Part shown: positions 3,146-23,304 of the stretch, piece by piece | Layout: the number at the start of each line of letters is the position of its first letter | Position numbering within the stretch: position 1 is the stretch's first letter | NCBI GenBank assembly: GCA_009909085.1 | Contig: JAAANX010000149.1 | Location: forward strand, 1 to 64,000 | Origin: Cyanobacteria bacterium GSL.Bin1 | GTDB taxonomy: Bacteria; Cyanobacteriota; Cyanobacteriia; Cyanobacteriales; Rubidibacteraceae | Length of the DNA: 64,000 nt | Direction: 5' to 3' | Notes under the pieces: model-generated | What the model saw: only the letters and a program-made list of their open reading frames with translations | Databases searched by the model: none | What the model was told of the DNA's origin: nothing | Made by a program: the position numbers and the translations under genes

Positions 3146-6100
3146 TTAATAAGTGGGCGTTTCTGGATAGGAAGGTTCTTCTTGAAAAACTGCTTCTAAT
3201 TTCTCTGGATCGCTTGGTGGGGGTTCAGAACTGAATAGATCATGCAAGAGGGTGTAGAAGCAGGGAATGATAAACAAGGTGAGGAAAGTGGCTAGGGATA
3301 ACCCGGAAAACACCACGACACCCAGCGGTTGTAAAAACTCTGACCCTTGTCCAATCCCCAAAGCTAACGGAAACATCCCTAAAACTGTGGTAATGGTGGT
3401 CATTAAAATCGGACGTAAACGTTGAGGGGCAGCTTGTAAGATGGCTTGGCGACGACTCACATTTTGCTGCGTGTAAATTTGGTTGGCAAACTCCACCATG
3501 ACGATCGCGTTGTTAACAACAATCCCCACCAGTAAGACAGCCCCGACTAAGACTGTTGCACCGACAGGGGTGTTCGTGACATAAAGCCCCACAATCCCAC
3601 CGGCGAGGGCAAGGGGCACCGTTAACATAATCACCAGTGGGTCAATGAGGGAGTTATACTGCACTGCCATCACCACAAACACCATGAAGGCAGCAAGTCC
3701 GCCTAAGAGTTTCAAGGCATTTTGCAATTCAGTATTGGTTTCTTCGGCAGAACTGGGGGCAATACTGACACCTTCAGGGAGATCCAGTTGTTGGAAAATG
3801 GATTGGGTTTGCGCGATCGCGCAATCGAGTGTTGCCCCTTCCACTAAATCGCCTTCGAGAATATAAACTTGGCGCTGATTCAGTCGTTGAATTTCGGCGG
3901 GGGCAAGCCCAAACTCAATATCGGCAATATCGCTGAGTTTTAAAGCTTGATTCTCTCCGACTAATAGGGGCACTTGTTCCAATTCTGAAATTGAGGTTAA
4001 TGTGGCATCTGGTAGTTGTACGCGAATATCCACCAGGCGATCGCCGCGTTGCAGTTGAGTGGGAACAGCCCCATCAATCGCCGTTTGGATCGCTTCCCCA
4101 ATTTCATTGACGGTTAAGCCAAATTCTTCTGCCCGTTGCCAGTCGGGTTGAATGCGTACTTCGGGCTGTGGCGGTTCAGGATCAGGACGAAAACTTGCCA
4201 GTGGCACATTTTCATCCAGGGCGGCGAGCACCTGTTCTCCTGCTTGTTGTAAAGCGGTTGAATCATTGCCTTGTAAAATGACATTCAAATCCCCACGAGT
4301 CGGCGAATTATTAAAACTAATCCCTCGAACATCTTGCGGTCGCATAAAAATGCGGGTATCGACTAAATTGAGTTGATCCAGTTTCGGTTGTACCCTGGCG
4401 ATATAGGATTGCACATCGACCCCTGATTCTAATTCAATGGTGCTGGATCCCCCTAAAACATCTGGGGACGTGCTGGTTCCAAATAAGTAACCACCCGCAG
4501 TAGTAAAGGTACTTTTCGTTCCCGGTTGTTCTAACAAGGTTTGATCAATCAACCGCATTACTTGCCGGTTTTCGGTCAAACTGGTTCCCGTCGGAAACTG
4601 CACATACATTTGCGCTTGTCCAGTATTAATTTCCGGTAAAATCTCTTGGGGCAATTGTCCGGCTAGCCAAAAACTCCCGCCCCCTAAAATCAGAAAGGCA
4701 CCACTAATGACCACAAGCCGATACCGTAACACTTGTTTTAAGCCTTGTTGATACCGGCGAATTGCGGCTTGGAACTGTTCGTTAAAGCGACGTAAGAACC
4801 AAAAATGAGATAAACCACTACTGCGGGGAATGGCTAAAAGTCGCGATGCCAACATAGGAACAACGGTTAAGGCAATTAACATCGAAGACGCTACCGCAAA
4901 ACTAATCGTCAGAATTAACTCACTAAACAACAGCGAGAAAAAGCCACCAATCAGTAAAAAAGGCACAACGGAAACTAAGTTCGTACTCGTTGCGGCTAGT
5001 AACGCAGATTCAATACTGCGACTGCTGTTCTCCGCTTGTTCGATAATATAGTTGTTACTCGGTCGTTCTTCCGCAACCGGATAGCCGGGAGTCATCCCTA
5101 CCCCTTCGGCGATGGTTTCCAGCATCACGATCGCGTTATCCACCACAATGCCTACTCCTAGTGCCAGTCCCCCTAAACTAAAGACATTGAGGGAAATATC
5201 AGACCCGCGCATCAATAAAATTGCCGTAAAGGTCGCCAGGGGAATGCCAACAATAATAATGAAGGTTTGGCGCAGCGACCCCAAAAATAACAATACGGCT
5301 ACCGCTGCCAAAGTTGCCCCGGTTAACCCAGCAACGGCAACATTTTGAATGGAATTGCGAATAAAAATAGATTCATCTTGGGTTGTGACCAACGTCATCT
5401 CTTCCGGAATTGTTCCCACTGCCTTGAGTTGGTTAATGCGCTGCTTGACTTGATCGACGACTTGTATGGTGTTGGCTGTGGGCTGTTTTTGTACACTGAC
5501 TTTTACCGCCGGATCGCCATTGAGGGTGACAAACACGCGCTGTTCCGCCGTACCATTAATAACCGTGGCAAACTCGGTGAGGGGAATATCGGCATCGCCC
5601 ACCGCAAATGATAAATTGCGAATCTCCTCAGCATTGTCAAACTTACCAATCGTTCGCGTCAGCGGTTCTGTGTCTTCTCCTGATAAGCGTCCGGTTGCTA
5701 CATCCACATTGCGATCGCGCAATTCATCTAAAACATCCGTTAACCCTAAGCCCAGCGCCTGCAAGCGAATCGGATCAATTTCGATGCGGACTTCTTCGGT
5801 CACCCCACCCGAGACATTCACCGACGCCACACCGGGGACAATACTTAACTCTCGCGCTAATTCTTCATCGGCAAAGACCCGCAAGTCCACATCCCGAAGC
5901 GACTGCGATTGCAAACCAAACTCATAAACCGGTAGCTGGGAGGGTTCAAACTTAAAAATGCGCGGATCTTCCACAATATCCGGCAATCGTCCTTGCACCC
6001 GATTAAAGGCAGCAGTGGTTTCGTTTAACGCCTGATCCACATCGTCTCCCGCTTCAAAGTACAAGTCAACCTCGACTTCCCCTTCTTCGGTTTCCGAGTA

Positions 6101-14806: not shown

Positions 14807-15378
14807 TAAAGCACTGATTCATCAATTGGCTTACACAAATACACTTTTTTCAAAGCAACTTGTTTCCCTCTTGCCCGCTTAAAAACATCTTGTCACTTTC
14901 TCTAGTCAGTCAGTGTCGAAAGCAATATTAATCTGCTTTTTTCTGCAAGTTTAGGTACTAAAGCTGACTCCTCATGCAAATACTGATCTCTTTTAAGTAT
15001 ATTCAAGCATTTTTTAGTGAAATATGCAGGCGATTAGATCACTATATTTAAGTATATCTAGCGAATTTTCTTGAATCAGCTCTTCCATCGCTCTAGTCTT
15101 GACTCATGATTGTCTGCATTTCAACAAGAGCAAGCATCAATTAAGTAACGGGACTTAGACAAAACTGCCTGCGCGATGTTCCCTTCAGGAACCGGCGAAG
15201 CCATCGTGTTTAAAACCAGTTCAATAGGGACTTTCACAAGGCTCAGAGGATAAAGTGCTGTGCCGGACACACAGCACTCACGTGAGTAACATAAGAACCA
15301 CATAGCATGAACTAAGTCTTTTATATCATTAATTTAAATCACTTTTAAATAAAAACTAAAATCATGATCTTTTAAAGA
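14807..15378. other. AT-rich intergenic region with palindromes
   Basis: No convincing gene in about 570 bases. The right half contains the hairpin-palindrome element at 15255-15287. A 60-codon frame on the minus strand (15121-15303) crosses that element and resembles nothing I recognise. The left half is AT-rich and should hold the promoter of the histidine kinase. Confidence 0.5.
15255..15287. repeat. Hairpin fused to a perfect 12-bp palindrome
   Basis: GTGCTGTG and CACAGCAC form an 8-bp stem with a 7-base loop (15255-15277). The stem runs directly into the perfect palindrome ACTCACGTGAGT (15276-15287), sharing two bases. The combination looks like a mobile-element end or a binding site, but no element body is recognisable. 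Confidence 0.6.
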
Positions 15379-15744: not shown

Positions 15745-17497
15745 TTAAGCAGAGGGTAATTCCGAGGGTTGCGGTTCTGTTGCTTTTTCAGAGGTTAGAT
15801 CAGTGGGTTGTTGAAAGACCGCATAGATCGCGCGGATGGTAAATAAGACCATGCCGATCGCGCCAAGACTAAAGACAATATCCCCAGGAATGCGTAACCA
15901 GACGGTCCATTCCATCCAAGGGGAGTGAATCACTTCCGCACTACGGGCGTACCAAGTGCCATGATTGACCGATTCCATCAGTTGATAGAAGCCATTGGGA
16001 ATCAAACCTAATACTAGCATTAAGCCTAAACCGCCATTGAGACTCCAGAAGGAAAAGCGCAGTAATTTTTCATTCCAAGCGCGATCCGGGACAATTTCGC
16101 GCAGGGCAAACAACATCAGCGCGATCGCGAGACAGCCATAGACCCCAAATAAGGCGGAGTGAGCATGAATCGGGGTGGTATTTAGTCCTTGGGAATAATA
16201 GAGGACAATCGGGGGATTAATCAGGAAACCGAAGACACCAGCGCCCACTAAATTCCAGAAACAAGTAGCAAGGAAAAAACGGAGGGGCCAGCGATAGAAG
16301 CCTTCTGCTTGTTGGGAGAGACGGAGGGTTTTCACCACTTCAAAGCCAATTAGGGTTAAAGGTACCACTTCTAATGCCGAAGCCACGGCCCCCATCGCAG
16401 CAATAAACGACGGTGTACCGGCAAAGTAGAGATGGTGTAGCGTGCCAATCACCCCACTACCCAGATAGAGAATGGTAGTTAAATAGGTGGCGCGTAATGC
16501 CGAGGATTTTTTCAAGAAGCCTAACTCACTGCACAAATAGGCAATCGCAACCGTGGCAAAGACTTCAAAGAAACCTTCTACCCATCTGCACCCCAAACAG
16601 CACCATGGCAACGCCAAAAAAGAGCGTGGTTGCTTTTTGACTCGGTGTTGCCCACCGCATCGCAGGACGTTTAGGCACGGCTTGCACCTCTTCTGCATCT
16701 TCTTGGCGCAGATAAACGTAGAGAAACAGTCCAATGACAGCAATTAAGACAATAACCGAAACAATTGACCACACCAGAAACTGACCCGGTGCTTCATTCC
16801 CAACTAAGTCATCATGGGGCCAATTTGCGGTATAAGAAAAGGGGGCATGGGGACGGTTTGCCGAAGCAGCCCAAGCGGTCCAAGTAAAGAATGCGGTTAC
16901 ATCATGGATTTCTTGGGGATTATGGAACCAACCGTGGGGAATGGAATGTTCGGGGGAACCTTGGGCGAGTAAGTCTTCATACTGGCGGAAAACTTCCTGT
17001 AAGCCCTGAGTTTGCGCATTCGTCAATAAGAGACGGTCTGCTTCTAGTTCATAACGATTGGGCTTAAATTGTTGCTTCACCCGGGCTTCTAAACTCGCGC
17101 GTTCCGGTTCAGGCAGGGCTTCGAGATCGGCTTGGGTAAAGGTCGGATCATTGGCATAGATCACTCCAGCCGTGGCTAAGCCCCAACGGTGCAGTAAATC
17201 CGCAGTCCAATCGGGGGCGAGATAGCTACCATGACCCCAAATGCTACCGATATGTTGTCCACCTCTACCCAGATAAGTTTCTTGTCCGTTTTGAATTTCT
17301 TCACCGGTTAATAACACTTCTTCTTGGGGAGATGAGATAGTTGCGGGTTGCGGTGGGGCATATTTAGAAATGGCAGCCCCAGCCCCCAAAAGCACGCTAA
17401 AGGTAACAAGACAGATCAAAACGAGCCAAACAGGAAGGCTAAAGTTCTTTAAGCGCAGGCGTGTTTTTTCCACCACGCCCGTAGATGGACTGGTCAT
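15745..17497 (-). pseudogene. norB: Quinol-dependent nitric oxide reductase gene with large internal deletion
   Basis: Two overlapping frames are the two ends of a single-chain quinol NO reductase (qNOR), which reduces NO to N2O in the membrane. The N-terminal part (from 17497) has the first membrane helix, the soluble domain with GGQHIGSIWGHGSYLAPDW, and a second helix. The C-terminal part, in another frame, has WVEGFFEVF, GTLHHLYFAGTP (two FeB histidines) and NTTPIHAHSALFGVYG (haem ligands). At about 16585 the text jumps from LFGVQ to WVEGFF with a one-base frame change. Roughly 170-200 residues expected between, including the TWHLQLAIFW haem-ligand helix and the VHLWVEG histidine, are absent. 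The product cannot be functional. Both flanks have no other lesions, so the deletion is recent or an assembly artefact. Confidence 0.88.
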
Positions 17498-17587: not shown

Positions 17588-18409
17588 TTACAGGGTTACA
17601 GGGAGTAAAGAGACGAGGGTAATGATGCCGAAAGTCAGGGCTGATGTAGTTTCTAAGCTGGCAATTTGACGAATGGGGGCGGTGCGATACCAGGATAAAC
17701 GGATCAGGATGAAAAATACTTTTAACAAAAGTACTGAGAAGGCAAAAGCAGGAATCAAGGGGAGGAGATTTGTCCAGTAAAGGAGGATGATGATTGCAAG
17801 CGCAACGATGCAATAAATCCCTAACCGTTTTAGGGCATTTCCTAGCGAGTCTCCTTTGCGAATTTTGCGTAACTTTACGGTGAAGATGGTTCCCGAAAAA
17901 TAAAGGGTACATAATCCCCATAACCCAATCGCAGTCGGTGTAAAACTATTTGTGGTCACGATGTAGGCAAACGGCACGACTAAACACACTGCAGCAAACG
18001 TTACCATTTCATTGAGGATTGATTTTTGTCCGCGTCGGAAGACAGCAACTGCATCCACCAGCAAGGCACATCCTGCACCAAGGTAAACTGCTAGTAAGGG
18101 CAATAGTGTTTCAGTCGCCGTCAAGGCAAAATAGAGGGCAATTCCCCCAGCAATACCTCCATAAACGCCACCCCAAAACAAAAACCGAGGCTGCCAAGAT
18201 TTGCGCTGTTTAATTTGTAAAACCAGGGGATGTTCGGCTTGAAATCCCAAAAAGGCACAAATGAGAGCCAGGGTGCTTTCCCACGTCCACTGTTGCCCTA
18301 AGGCAACGCCAACCAGAAAAGACACCAGTAACACCACATATACGCCATGTTCAGGAGAAATGATGGGTTTGTACGCAGTTGGGAAATGAGGCTTTGTCGT
18401 TGAACTCAT
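17588..18409 (-). CDS. YwiC-like integral membrane protein
   Basis: A 273-residue protein made almost wholly of hydrophobic helices (about eight), opening with a soluble lead that includes YKPIISPEHGVYVV, a sequence typical of the YwiC-like family. In Bacillus, ywiC lies in the nar/fnr/arfM neighbourhood, and family members are often near denitrification or anaerobic genes. Here the gene lies 90 bases upstream of norB on the same strand, within the block divergent from a Crp/Fnr regulator. Biochemical function is unknown for the family. The link to NO or nitrite metabolism is from context. Confidence 0.75.
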   Translation of the reverse strand: MSSTTKPHFPTAYKPIISPEHGVYVVLLVSFLVGVALGQQWTWESTLALICAFLGFQAEHPLVLQIKQRKSWQPRFLFWGGVYGGIAGGIALYFALTATETLLPLLAVYLGAGCALLVDAVAVFRRGQKSILNEMVTFAAVCLVVPFAYIVTTNSFTPTAIGLWGLCTLYFSGTIFTVKLRKIRKGDSLGNALKRLGIYCIVALAIIILLYWTNLLPLIPAFAFSVLLLKVFFILIRLSWYRTAPIRQIASLETTSALTFGIITLVSLLPVTL

Positions 18410-18436: not shown

Positions 18437-18919
18437 TTAAGGGAAAACGACTTTCGGGTCTGGTTTTTCTCCCTGATACAAATGCGCTGCGGACTTTAAG
18501 ACCAATTCCGAATAGAGAATTTTTTGGATGTCTAAGCTGGGCGCACGAGCAGCAATTTTTCGATAGGCTTGGATTTCCCCGTCTAGGGTAAAATGACTTT
18601 GCACTTGATAGTGGTCGTAATCGTGAACTGCTAGCAGTGCAAACCCACAGAAGGTATTCTGATAAAACTCTGAATCATACCCCTCCATCGAAACCCAGAG
18701 ATGTTCATTGGCAATATCAGCAAACATATCTTCAGCGCGATCGTAATAGAGGGTATAACTGGCTTGTACCGCAAAAGGGAGTTGTTGGAATTGCTCAAAA
18801 ATCCAATCACAAAATTCCGCTTTTGGCTTCTCAGAAACCTCGACAGGCTGACCATTGATGTATAGTTTGGCTAACGTTTCTAGGGTTGGTTTGCGGTTGG
18901 TTTTAACAGGTGAGATCAT
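18437..18919 (-). CDS. Conserved-looking hypothetical protein, His/Asp-rich motif
   Basis: A 160-residue soluble protein without a domain I can name. The central part carries AVHDYDHYQVQSHFTLDGE (about 98-116), a cluster of histidines and acids that could bind a metal, followed by a helical tail ending in DPKVVFP. It starts 27 bases before the ywiC-like gene on the same strand, so co-transcription is likely. Its position between hcp and norB suggests a role under nitrosative or low-oxygen stress, but nothing in the sequence proves this. Confidence 0.7.
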   Translation of the reverse strand: MISPVKTNRKPTLETLAKLYINGQPVEVSEKPKAEFCDWIFEQFQQLPFAVQASYTLYYDRAEDMFADIANEHLWVSMEGYDSEFYQNTFCGFALLAVHDYDHYQVQSHFTLDGEIQAYRKIAARAPSLDIQKILYSELVLKSAAHLYQGEKPDPKVVFP

Positions 18920-18976: not shown

Positions 18977-19462
18977 CTAGAAACGTAACTGTTCTCGTGC
19001 GTCTGCAGCTAAAACTAAACATAATAAAGCAACTGCACTTTGCCATTGTTGACGAATTTGTGTATCTTCAACCTGATTAAATAAGCTGACAAGGCGTGGA
19101 ATCGCTTGTTCTAAGGCAATTGGAGGAACAGGACGATGCAATTCCACTAAATGTTGGATACTTTCTTGGTTATTGAGAAAATTCGCCACCCACGTTGTTG
19201 TATGGTTCGGATTATCGGGAACTCGCTTGATTTGTAGTTCTTGTTTGAGCCAAACGTAAAAAGCAGGGAGTTGATTTTCTAACACAGACTTGGCGGTTGG
19301 TAGCGTTTCTCGCAATAGTGAGAGATCCAAGGTACCTAATTCCGTTTGAAACTCGTCTTGTTTCGGTAACTCACTGGCATTTAAGGTGAGTAAGTTTTCT
19401 ACTGTGGATTCTGAAAGGTTGAGATGTTGGGTAAACGTATCGACAGTTGCTTGTGGATTCAT
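18977..19462 (-). CDS. Hypothetical all-helical protein, 161 residues
   Basis: The sequence is predicted to be almost all helix (for example LRETLPTAKSVLENQLPAFY and IRQQWQSAVALLCLVLAADA) with no membrane span, no cysteines in motifs and no recognised domain. It follows the cupin remnant by seven bases and precedes the next hypothetical gene by 57 bases, all on one strand. It is most simply read as part of the nitrosative-stress transcription unit. I cannot assign a function. Confidence 0.68.
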   Translation of the reverse strand: MNPQATVDTFTQHLNLSESTVENLLTLNASELPKQDEFQTELGTLDLSLLRETLPTAKSVLENQLPAFYVWLKQELQIKRVPDNPNHTTTWVANFLNNQESIQHLVELHRPVPPIALEQAIPRLVSLFNQVEDTQIRQQWQSAVALLCLVLAADAREQLRF

Positions 19463-19672: not shown

Positions 19673-21322
19673 TTAAGATAGACAAGCAGCTAAATCTTCT
19701 TCAGGAGTTTTAATTGCCTGTAAGCCATAAGTATCAGATAAAAGTTTCAACACATTTGGGGAAATAAACGCAGGGAGAGTCGGACCCAAACGAATATTTT
19801 GAATGCCAAGATGAAGCAGAGTCAATAGTACAGCAACCGCTTTTTGCTCATACCAAGATAAAATCATGGACAGCGGAAGATCATTAACATCCATTTCAAA
19901 AGCATTGGCAAGAGCAAGAGCAATTTGAATCGCCGAATAAGCATCATTGCATTGTCCGACATCCATCAGACGCGGTAAACCGGAAATTTCTCCCAAATTT
20001 TGATCAAAGAAACGAAACTTTCCACAAGCGAGGGTCAAAACAACACAATCTTCTGGAACTTTTTCCACAAACTCAGTGTAGTAAGTCCGCCCTGGTTTAG
20101 CACCATCGCAACCGCCAACTAAGAAAAAGTGTCGAATCTTACCCTCCTTGACGGCATTAATCACGGTGTCAGCAACACTCAAAACCGCATTATGTCCAAA
20201 GCCAACTTTTACGGTTTTTGGCACGCCTGTTTCTGTAAAGCCAGGCAAGGATAATGCTTTTTCAATCACTGGCGAGAAGTCTGGAAAGCCATCTTCACCT
20301 TCTTGTAAGTGATTCAGATGAGGATATCCCACTGGACCAAGACTGAAGAGTTTATCGGTATAGTGATCATGAGGAGGCATTAAACAATTGGTGGTGACAA
20401 TAATGGCACCAGGAAATTTAGCAAAATCTTTCGTCTGGTTTTGCCACGCCGTACCATAATGTCCGTAAAGGTGCGGATAGGTCTCTTTTAGTTTCGGATA
20501 GCCATGAGCCGGTAACAGTTCTCCATGAGTATAAACGGTAATTCCTGTTCCTGCTGTTTTCTTGAGAATTTCCGATAACTGTCGAATGTCATGACCCGAG
20601 ACTAAAATTGCTTTACCGGGTTTAGGATTGAGAGGAACGGTGGTTGGTACAGGATGACCATAAGTTTGAGTATGTCCAGCATCAAGAAGTTCCATTGCCC
20701 GCAGATTTTGTTTTCCCACCTCTAGGGCTAAGTTGACCCACTGTTCTAAGTTTAAGGTTGTATCAGACAATGCAGCGAGAGCCTGATGGGTAAAGCGATA
20801 GACTTCCTCATCATCTTGGCTTAACTCATGAGCGTGAAATGTATAAGACGCAACTCCTTTAATGCCATAAAGGACGGTAAGTTTGAGAGAAAAGATATCA
20901 ACGGCATCTTTCCCCACTTGGCTAATAAATTTTAAGGCAACCTCTGCTCCTTGTTCAACGAGGCTTTCTTGAAAGTCGGGTTCAAAGTTAGTAATCGAAG
21001 ACCAGTTGATAGAAGGATTGATTGCTTCAATTTGAGTTTTCAGGGTTTCACGGTGCGCGATCGCGCGGGTGATATAATTCTCAAATCGGCTCGGATTGAA
21101 ATTGACGTTGGTCATGGTAGCAAACAAGGCTTCACAGGTAAAAACGTCGGTGCGGTAAGTCTCAATGCCTTTTGCTTTTGCCTCAAGGGTGACTATCGCT
21201 AACCCTTGCAGACAATGAATCAATAAATCTTGGATCGCGTTCACTTCTGGGCTTTTCCCACAAGCTCCAAATTGATGACATCCGTCGCCACTGGCTGTTT
21301 GTTCACACTGTTCGCAAAACAT
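19673..21322 (-). CDS. hcp: Hybrid cluster protein (hydroxylamine / NO reductase)
   Basis: A 549-residue iron-sulfur-oxygen enzyme that detoxifies nitric oxide and can reduce hydroxylamine in low oxygen. The N-terminal Cys motif (MFCEQCEQTASGDGC then ACG) binds the first Fe-S cluster. The hybrid-cluster ligands known for the family are all in place: His in GHDIRQL, Glu in THGELLPAHG, Cys in TTNCLMPP, GGCDGA, TLACGKFRF and VGQCNDAY, and the Glu and Lys of SWYEQKAV. It starts 12 bases after the cupin gene and is third in the operon divergent from a Crp/Fnr regulator. No Hcr reductase gene is adjacent, so its electron donor is unknown. Confidence 0.95.
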   Translation of the reverse strand: MFCEQCEQTASGDGCHQFGACGKSPEVNAIQDLLIHCLQGLAIVTLEAKAKGIETYRTDVFTCEALFATMTNVNFNPSRFENYITRAIAHRETLKTQIEAINPSINWSSITNFEPDFQESLVEQGAEVALKFISQVGKDAVDIFSLKLTVLYGIKGVASYTFHAHELSQDDEEVYRFTHQALAALSDTTLNLEQWVNLALEVGKQNLRAMELLDAGHTQTYGHPVPTTVPLNPKPGKAILVSGHDIRQLSEILKKTAGTGITVYTHGELLPAHGYPKLKETYPHLYGHYGTAWQNQTKDFAKFPGAIIVTTNCLMPPHDHYTDKLFSLGPVGYPHLNHLQEGEDGFPDFSPVIEKALSLPGFTETGVPKTVKVGFGHNAVLSVADTVINAVKEGKIRHFFLVGGCDGAKPGRTYYTEFVEKVPEDCVVLTLACGKFRFFDQNLGEISGLPRLMDVGQCNDAYSAIQIALALANAFEMDVNDLPLSMILSWYEQKAVAVLLTLLHLGIQNIRLGPTLPAFISPNVLKLLSDTYGLQAIKTPEEDLAACLS

Positions 21323-21334
21323 GAGTTATTCTCC

Positions 21335-21697
21335 CTAATTTTCAATTGATGTTCCTTGGGTTTCTACTGCGGATAAGATCAGCCAAAAGGCTAAATTGGT
21401 CGTTGCTTCTAAAGCGTGGGGGGCGTGCGCTGGCATATACACCACTACACCTGGCGTTAGCGTGATGTCTTCACCATTGAGGGTTAACGTTCCTTCCCCT
21501 TCCATTGCCATCACAGTGGCGTTTTTAGACGAAGTATGCTCTTCTAACGTCGTTCCTGCTGCCAGACAAAAGAGGTTTTGTTGACTGTGGTCATCTTTGA
21601 CAAAAACTTTGCTCAAAATTCCCGTTTCAGGATATTCAATGAGATTTTTAAGCGTATTGTGATAGCTGGTGTCAGCATTAGTAATCGTTGCAGCCAT
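21335..21697 (-). CDS. Small cupin-domain protein
   Basis: A 120-residue single-domain beta-barrel. Cupin motif 1 is AAGTTLEEHTSS then MAMEGEG, with only one of the two usual histidines; motif 2 is MPAHAPHAL, with two. So a metal site is likely but not canonical. It lies between a methyltransferase gene (6-base gap) and hcp (12-base gap), clearly one operon. A truncated second copy is at 19470. Small cupins often occur beside hcp in Crp/Fnr-controlled stress units. Whether this one is an enzyme or a sensor is not known. Confidence 0.82.
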   Translation of the reverse strand: MAATITNADTSYHNTLKNLIEYPETGILSKVFVKDDHSQQNLFCLAAGTTLEEHTSSKNATVMAMEGEGTLTLNGEDITLTPGVVVYMPAHAPHALEATTNLAFWLILSAVETQGTSIEN

Positions 21698-21703
21698 GAT
21701 TAA

Positions 21704-22486
21704 TTACTCCTTAATTGCCGAAAAAGCAATGTAACCGAGTTGGTCACAATATTGATTAAAGGTGTTTCTCATTTGGAAAACACGCTCTCTGATTTCCGCT
21801 TGCGTGAGTACATTCCAAGCAATTTTCAGCGCCGGAAATAATCCTTCATCTTCAATCACTCGTTTGGGGTTGAGTAAGCCCATTTCTCCAGTTTTGGCTT
21901 GTTGGACGGTTAATCCAGCTTCTGCGCAGGCTTGTTCCCATTCCGTTTCCGATAAAGGCTGAGCATTCACCCGAATCACTTGCGAAAGAGCGCGATCAAT
22001 TTCTTCTCGATTTCCACCGGCAATCATTTCATGAGAGAGGAAAATTCCTCCTGGTTTCAGCACCTTCTCAATCCCTGCTAAAATCTTTGCCTTCCCACTG
22101 GCTGACTGCATGGTCAAAATGGCTTCAGCAAAGACATAATCAAAGGTTTCAGTGATTTCTGCAAGGTTAAAGATATTGCCCTCACGAACTTCCACTTGTC
22201 CTTCTAATCCCGCTTGACGAATGTTTTCTTGCGCGATGCGGACACTTTCAGGATTGCGTTCAATCCCAACGACTCGTACGCCGTAACGTTGCGCTAGCCA
22301 AATGGCACTTTTACCAAAACTTGCGGCTAATTCCAAGACGGTTTCTCCAGGTTGAAAATCAGCCCACTCTAGCAGTTGACTCGTGGCTTCTAGCCCACCA
22401 GGGCGCAAGACGGTTTTGCCAGCTTTGGCAAGCACTTCATGTCCAGGGGCAGTTTTGAAATTGATTTTTGATGCTGTGGTACTCAT
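21704..22486 (-). CDS. SAM-dependent methyltransferase
   Basis: A class I Rossmann methyltransferase of 260 residues from the chosen start MSTTAS (22486); an ATG five codons upstream is possible. Motif I is VLELAASFGKS, unusual in having AASFG where most have GxGxG. Motif II ends in VVGIERNP, then FDYVFAEAIL and VLKPGGIFLSHEMI follow. The substrate is not evident. It is the first gene of the methyltransferase-cupin-hcp operon and its start lies 120 bases from the divergent Crp/Fnr gene. A 15-bp palindrome sits 27 bases before the start. Confidence 0.86.
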   Translation of the reverse strand: MSTTASKINFKTAPGHEVLAKAGKTVLRPGGLEATSQLLEWADFQPGETVLELAASFGKSAIWLAQRYGVRVVGIERNPESVRIAQENIRQAGLEGQVEVREGNIFNLAEITETFDYVFAEAILTMQSASGKAKILAGIEKVLKPGGIFLSHEMIAGGNREEIDRALSQVIRVNAQPLSETEWEQACAEAGLTVQQAKTGEMGLLNPKRVIEDEGLFPALKIAWNVLTQAEIRERVFQMRNTFNQYCDQLGYIAFSAIKE

Positions 22487-22512
22487 GATTTGATTCCTCA
22501 TCGAGAGGGAGA

Positions 22513-22527
22513 GATTAGTTGCTAATC
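22513..22527. promoter_or_regulatory. Candidate operator, palindrome in the divergent promoter
   Basis: A perfect 6-3-6 palindrome, GATTAG-TTG-CTAATC, lies between the methyltransferase and the Crp/Fnr gene. It is not the canonical FNR box (TTGAT-N4-ATCAA), but the size and symmetry suit a dimeric regulator. Function is inferred from position alone. Confidence 0.4.
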
Positions 22528-22581
22528 CCTGTCTGGGAAATTGCTATAGTTTTAAGATGACAAAAATTTTCAGCTATTTCT

Positions 22582-22595
22582 CTGAGGTAGCTCAG
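22582..22595. promoter_or_regulatory. Second candidate operator next to the regulator start
   Basis: CTGAG-GTAG-CTCAG has the 5-4-5 spacing of Crp/Fnr family sites but a different half-site. It ends 10 bases before the regulator ATG, where binding could repress its own gene. Confidence 0.35.
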
Positions 22596-22605
22596 TTTCG
22601 CCTTT

Positions 22606-23304
22606 ATGTTGGCAACGATTGAACAACTGCAACAGCTTTGGATTCTCCGCACTCTCTCTGAAGAAAACTTATCGCAACTCCAAGCTCACGCTGAAATTCG
22701 GACGTTTCAGAAAGAAGAGATGGTTATGATTGAGGAGGATCAGTTGCCAGCTTGTTTATTTGCCTTAGTCGAGGGGACGTTACAAATTCAAAAAACGGCA
22801 ACAACGGGAAAAGAAACGGTTGTGAGGATGATTCACGCGGGAGAAATGTTCGCAGCCCCCGCCATGTTTGGCAATCAACTTGCACCCGCTACTGTGGTGT
22901 GTCAAGAAAAATGCGTAGTGGTAATGATCGATAAAAACGCCATTATTGATGCGATTCAGGAAACCCCAGAAATCGCATTGCAAATTCTCGCCACCTTTAA
23001 TCAGCGGTTACAGCATTTACATGAAACGGTACATGGTTTAATTTCCGAACGCGCAACGGTGCGGTTAGCCCGTTTAATTCTCTATCAAGCGCAAGAATAT
23101 GGCACAAGACAGGAAAAGGAAGGCGAGGTTTTAAATGTAAAACTTCCTTATTATCAAATGGCGCGAATGGTCGGGATTACTTATGAAGAATGTACCCGTT
23201 TATTGAAGAAGATGGAAACCGCTGTCAGTTATCGCCGTGGGGGAAGGATTTTGATTCATGATTGGGAGTTAATGGTTGCTTTTACCCATCCAGAAGAAGA
23301 GTGA
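22606..23304 (+). CDS. Crp/Fnr-family transcription regulator
   Basis: A 232-residue regulator with an N-terminal cyclic-nucleotide-binding-type beta-barrel (about 15-125, VEGTLQIQKT, HAGEMFAAPAMFG), a dimerisation helix, and a C-terminal winged helix-turn-helix (QMARMVGITYEECTRLLKKM, about 185-205). There is no N-terminal cysteine cluster like that of oxygen-sensing FNR, so sensing by haem or by another ligand, as in DNR/NnrR-type NO sensors, is possible. The recognition helix lacks the usual E-x-x-SR pattern, consistent with a non-canonical operator. It is divergent from methyltransferase-cupin-hcp and is the obvious candidate controller. Confidence 0.92.
   Translation: MLATIEQLQQLWILRTLSEENLSQLQAHAEIRTFQKEEMVMIEEDQLPACLFALVEGTLQIQKTATTGKETVVRMIHAGEMFAAPAMFGNQLAPATVVCQEKCVVVMIDKNAIIDAIQETPEIALQILATFNQRLQHLHETVHGLISERATVRLARLILYQAQEYGTRQEKEGEVLNVKLPYYQMARMVGITYEECTRLLKKMETAVSYRRGGRILIHDWELMVAFTHPEEE

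Follow-up and report, generated by a model that had tools for sequence, protein, structure and literature searches.

The window analysed here, a stretch of 64,000 nucleotides from Cyanobacteria bacterium GSL.Bin1, carries on its minus strand a row of genes that ends in norB, the gene for a quinol-dependent nitric oxide reductase (qNOR). The probable first gene of the row encodes a SAM-dependent methyltransferase (21707..22543) and is followed by genes for a small cupin protein (21335..21697; profile match), an intact hybrid cluster protein, Hcp (19673..21322; NCBIfam NF003658 at 783 bits, cut-off 367), two unnamed proteins of 161 residues (18977..19462) and 160 residues (18437..18919), and a YwiC-like membrane protein (17588..18409; PF14256) directly upstream of norB. 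A relic of the 160-residue gene lies beside a norB relic in the congener G005; ywiC, the cupin gene and one or other of the unnamed genes also adjoin intact norB in several other cyanobacteria. On the plus strand, a gene for a Crp/Fnr-family regulator (22591..23301; PF00027 and PF13545) diverges from the row. The genes from the methyltransferase to norB likely form one operon under NO control, with the regulator as the likely source of its NO/redox response.

Hcp is 98.5% identical to its counterpart in the congener G001, against only 88% for the adjoining 161-residue protein, a contrast that may reflect unusually strong conservation or recent exchange. An insertion-element remnant suspected downstream of norB (15121-15303) had no Pfam match and was discarded, and an Rfam scan of the window returned no matches.

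Structure of the norB lesion

The norB pseudogene extends over 15745..17497 on the minus strand, from an ATG at 17497 to the natural stop at 15745, and consists of two retained parts in different frames. The 5′ part (16586..17497) encodes 304 residues up to the motif LFGVQ, comprising TM1, the NorC-like hydrophilic domain, TM2 and the first half of TM3. The 3′ part (15745..16584) encodes 279 residues that begin with WVEGFFEVF and run up to the natural stop, spanning the second half of TM8 to TM14, and matches PF00115 (COX1) with an E-value of 9.8e-38 from profile position 210 onward. Both parts are alike to the qNOR (NorB/NorZ) of Nodosilinea (L003), Leptolyngbya (L004) and Synechocystis salina (L005), with 74% identity to the Nodosilinea protein in the 5′ part and 91-93% in the 3′ part; by comparison with these proteins, the window gene is 190 codons short and frame shifted, and has lost catalytic ligands.

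The two parts meet at the junction CAG-A-TGG (16584..16588), read on the minus strand as ...CTG TTT GGG GTG CAG / A / TGG GTA GAA GGT TTC..., with a Q codon at 16588-16586, a single orphan A at 16585 and a W codon at 16584-16582. Read past the junction, the upstream frame adds the out-of-frame tail MGRRFL and ends in a TGA (16565..16585, with the stop at 16565), and the downstream frame has no interruption between the junction and the stop at 15745. A sequence-only reading of this DNA had proposed a break at about 16585, with the loss of 0.5-0.6 kb from the middle of the gene and a frame change between LFGVQ and WVEGFFEVF. Comparison with intact genes of relatives bears this out to the base. 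The stretch between the same Q and W codons measures 570 bp in 24 and 567 bp in 15 of 39 intact cyanobacterial norB genes (190 or 189 codons), and 570 bp in all four of the nearest relatives measured (L003, L004, L005 and L040), against 1 bp in the window. The net loss is thus 569 bp (566 for an ancestor with the 567-bp stretch), not a multiple of three, and amounts to about 190 codons. The earlier placement of LFGVQ in the second helix has to be corrected, since alignment to qNOR with published helix limits (PMC13087809) puts it in TM3.

Loss of catalytic residues

Aligned to the solved qNOR of Alcaligenes xylosoxidans, the missing block starts midway through TM3 and ends midway through TM8. 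With it go H343, H497 and E418 (L003 numbering), each invariant in all 68 intact cyanobacterial records, which align with His331, His486 and Glu407 of the A. xylosoxidans enzyme, where these residues serve haem b, FeB and Ca2+, respectively (PMC13087809, PMC6713497). As previously suggested, the lost segment therefore carries both a haem-ligand helix (TM4, with H343) and an FeB histidine (H497). The window gene keeps H548, H549, H638 and H640. Only two of the three histidines needed for FeB (A. xylosoxidans His486, 537 and 538) are hence present, as H548 and H549, and only one of the two needed for haem b (His331 and 631), as H640; the Ca2+-binding glutamate is gone. The NorC-like N-terminal domain without haem c is complete (PF22085, E-value 1.6e-54 over the full profile length), while the haem-copper-oxidase-type core begins only at PF00115 position 210, in the other frame.

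A PDB search matched entries 8bgw, 6fwf and 3ayf, the qNOR of A. xylosoxidans, Neisseria meningitidis and Geobacillus stearothermophilus. Judged by the intact cyanobacterial relative, the gene shares its domain order and ligand motifs with these three enzymes, but half of TM3, all of TM4-TM7 and half of TM8 are absent from the window copy. That this locus yields a working qNOR appears very unlikely, because rejoining the frames by a translational trick would not bring the ligands back.

Absence of a second copy

The genome searched is a draft of 4.82 Mb in 210 contigs, rated 100% complete. PF00115 has two matches in it, one being the window norB and the other a frame of 572 codons on contig C34, for which the oxidase CtaD is the best curated match, and a full-length NorB query matched only the two norB pieces in the window. 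Queried against all contigs, the missing block produced a best match of 12 bits (E-value 0.26) in a stretch with stops, and hence no stray copy. No second norB was thus found among the 210 contigs, and the gene combines homology to an intact gene with a disabling lesion and no second functional copy found, as befits a pseudogene. A plasmid collection searched for norB yielded only one distant near-full-length homologue, from Acaryochloris.

Origin and age of the deletion

We consider it very probable, from the junction and its comparison with relatives, that norB is a recent pseudogene created by one illegitimate deletion, with little or no homology at its ends, of about 569 bp. Such an event would have cut the central portion from a normal cyanobacterial qNOR gene and put what follows out of frame, leaving an enzyme that would be dead and at best a product in the form of a 310-residue N-terminal stub without the catalytic site. 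The longest exact match between the two breakpoint regions in seven intact relatives is 5-8 bp and lies away from the breakpoints; judged from these relatives, microhomology at the break would be one to three bases. Homology of this extent is too short for collapse of an assembly graph and suits an illegitimate deletion.

The foremost competing explanation is an assembly or library artefact, with norB intact in the genome and its middle missing only from the contig. With a draft of this kind, a clone- or amplification-type artefact is conceivable, and the retained parts do look like those of a gene under full constraint. Graph collapse, however, is not expected, because the direct repeats at the two sites in intact relatives do not exceed 8 bp, far below any usual k-mer. 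The junction region contains no N, none of the contigs of this genome, rated 100% complete, carries the missing block, and congeners, too, have a broken norB or none. On this evidence we regard an artefact as improbable.

Evidence on age comes from 68 intact cyanobacterial NorB records (some from one genome), in which 308 alignment columns are invariant. Of these columns, 213 fall in the retained part of norB, and the window gene keeps all 213, even though several intact genes break one to six of the columns that all the other genes keep. The gene is otherwise free of stops and of any further frameshift. If selection is off, the absence of change in 213 codons bounds neutral substitution at about 0.6% per site or less (95% bound). 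The view that the rest of the gene is undamaged and the event recent is in accordance with these figures, and a recent loss of constraint is indicated because all 213 invariant residues are kept. Synonymous sites are saturated with respect to nearly every known relative, so dating by dN/dS failed and the date given here is one of amino-acid conservation alone. This leaves some room for an older pseudogene, in which norB function was lost earlier and the deletion came later, but nothing speaks for it directly, and both the bound on substitution and the absence of further stops or frameshifts make it a most improbable course of events. The chance that the locus encodes a NorB of a truly short type, or a pair of functional half-proteins, for which one may cite the open and fully conserved pieces and an in-frame 471-residue NorB with an internal deletion in a complete genome (G214), is practically negligible, given that the haem b, FeB and Ca2+ ligands are gone and would not be restored by rejoined frames, that the G214 deletion has other ends and takes out other residues, and that no NorB with the window's junction was found, the lesion-free cyanobacterial NorB proteins having open frames of at least about 770 residues.

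Recurrent damage to norB

Within the genus, the exact lesion occurs in this genome only. The nearest relative that carries the block, G001 (one contig, 4,179,170 bp), shares with the window the genes for the regulator, the methyltransferase, the cupin, Hcp and the 161-residue protein, and the 160-residue gene, ywiC and norB are absent, with repeated copies of a DUF4351 protein gene in their place. These copies (C1:2206000-2224000; 4134-8745 of L131) are four or five near-identical genes for a protein of about 275 residues with a DUF4351 C-terminus, perhaps of an Rpn/PD-(D/E)XK-type nuclease family. In G005, all that is left of norB is its 3′-terminal 243 bp, beside the final 57 codons of the 160-residue gene. 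Directly before this norB relic, positions 3270-3850 of contig C78 (L077) resemble, by eye, an IS200/IS605-type right end. A search of the other three congeners with a NorB query gave no norB match. We infer that an ancestor common to at least part of the genus carried norB and that the gene has since disappeared on more than one occasion; alternatively, norB may have been transferred separately into the present genome (G000) and G005.

On a wider scale, 37 of 388 genomes of the class carry the NorB N-terminal domain. The gene is a full-length open frame in 26 of them, runs off a contig end in two (G218 and G225, left out of the count of broken genes) and is damaged inside in nine, the present genome included. 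Of these nine genomes, three (G214, G220 and G017) consist of a single contig, and some lesions in fragmented genomes may be sequencing errors. The gene is broken in different ways, and no family of equally short NorB proteins, which would have spoken for a functional short form, was found among the NorB-bearing cyanobacterial genomes. In G214, a deletion separate from that in the window has taken about 290 residues from within the protein with the frame kept, which leaves the shortened NorB already mentioned. G220 has a frameshift near residue 117, and in G017 the 5′ end (the first 186 residues) is gone, with transposase-like frames just upstream. The shortened G214 gene lies on the minus strand at 3173-4573 of locus L118 (C1:2411000-2418000).

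The gene has thus been broken repeatedly and in different ways across cyanobacteria, a mildly interesting recurrent pattern. As norB lesions of different kinds arose independently in several lineages, one can read loss of qNOR, with the NO-stress operon including Hcp left intact, as a recurrent and selected course in cyanobacteria as opposed to random decay, although we hold this reading to be rather doubtful. Among the titles and abstracts listed in a literature search, none dealt with the decay of cyanobacterial norB.

Consequences for NO removal

With norB disabled, the strain would be unable to reduce NO with a respiratory NO reductase. As the last gene of the likely NO-stress operon, norB could be lost with the upstream genes undisturbed, and Hcp could stay under selection. 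It had been proposed that the strain would then rely on Hcp alone among the known NO-removing enzymes of the block. For the classical enzymes tested this holds: no globin-domain protein was found in the genome, and hence no flavohaemoglobin or globin-type NO dioxygenase, nor any NO reductase besides the broken norB. It is not firm for the cell as a whole, because four flavodiiron proteins are present. Cyanobacterial flavodiiron proteins are best known for O2 reduction. Those of the green alga Chlamydomonas are reported to take part in N2O formation (PMC9409008). A C-terminal relic of a second hcp gene, 79 residues long and 72% identical to the window Hcp, was also observed on contig C83 (90500-97500; 3344-3601 of L132).

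Taken singly, the norB described here is an ordinary recent pseudogene of a known family, and only the recurrent loss merits follow-up. The case provides a clean, roughly datable loss of the respiratory NO reductase while Hcp is kept. Together, the norB lesions suggest that many cyanobacteria can do without qNOR, a point relevant to the question of which of them can release N2O.
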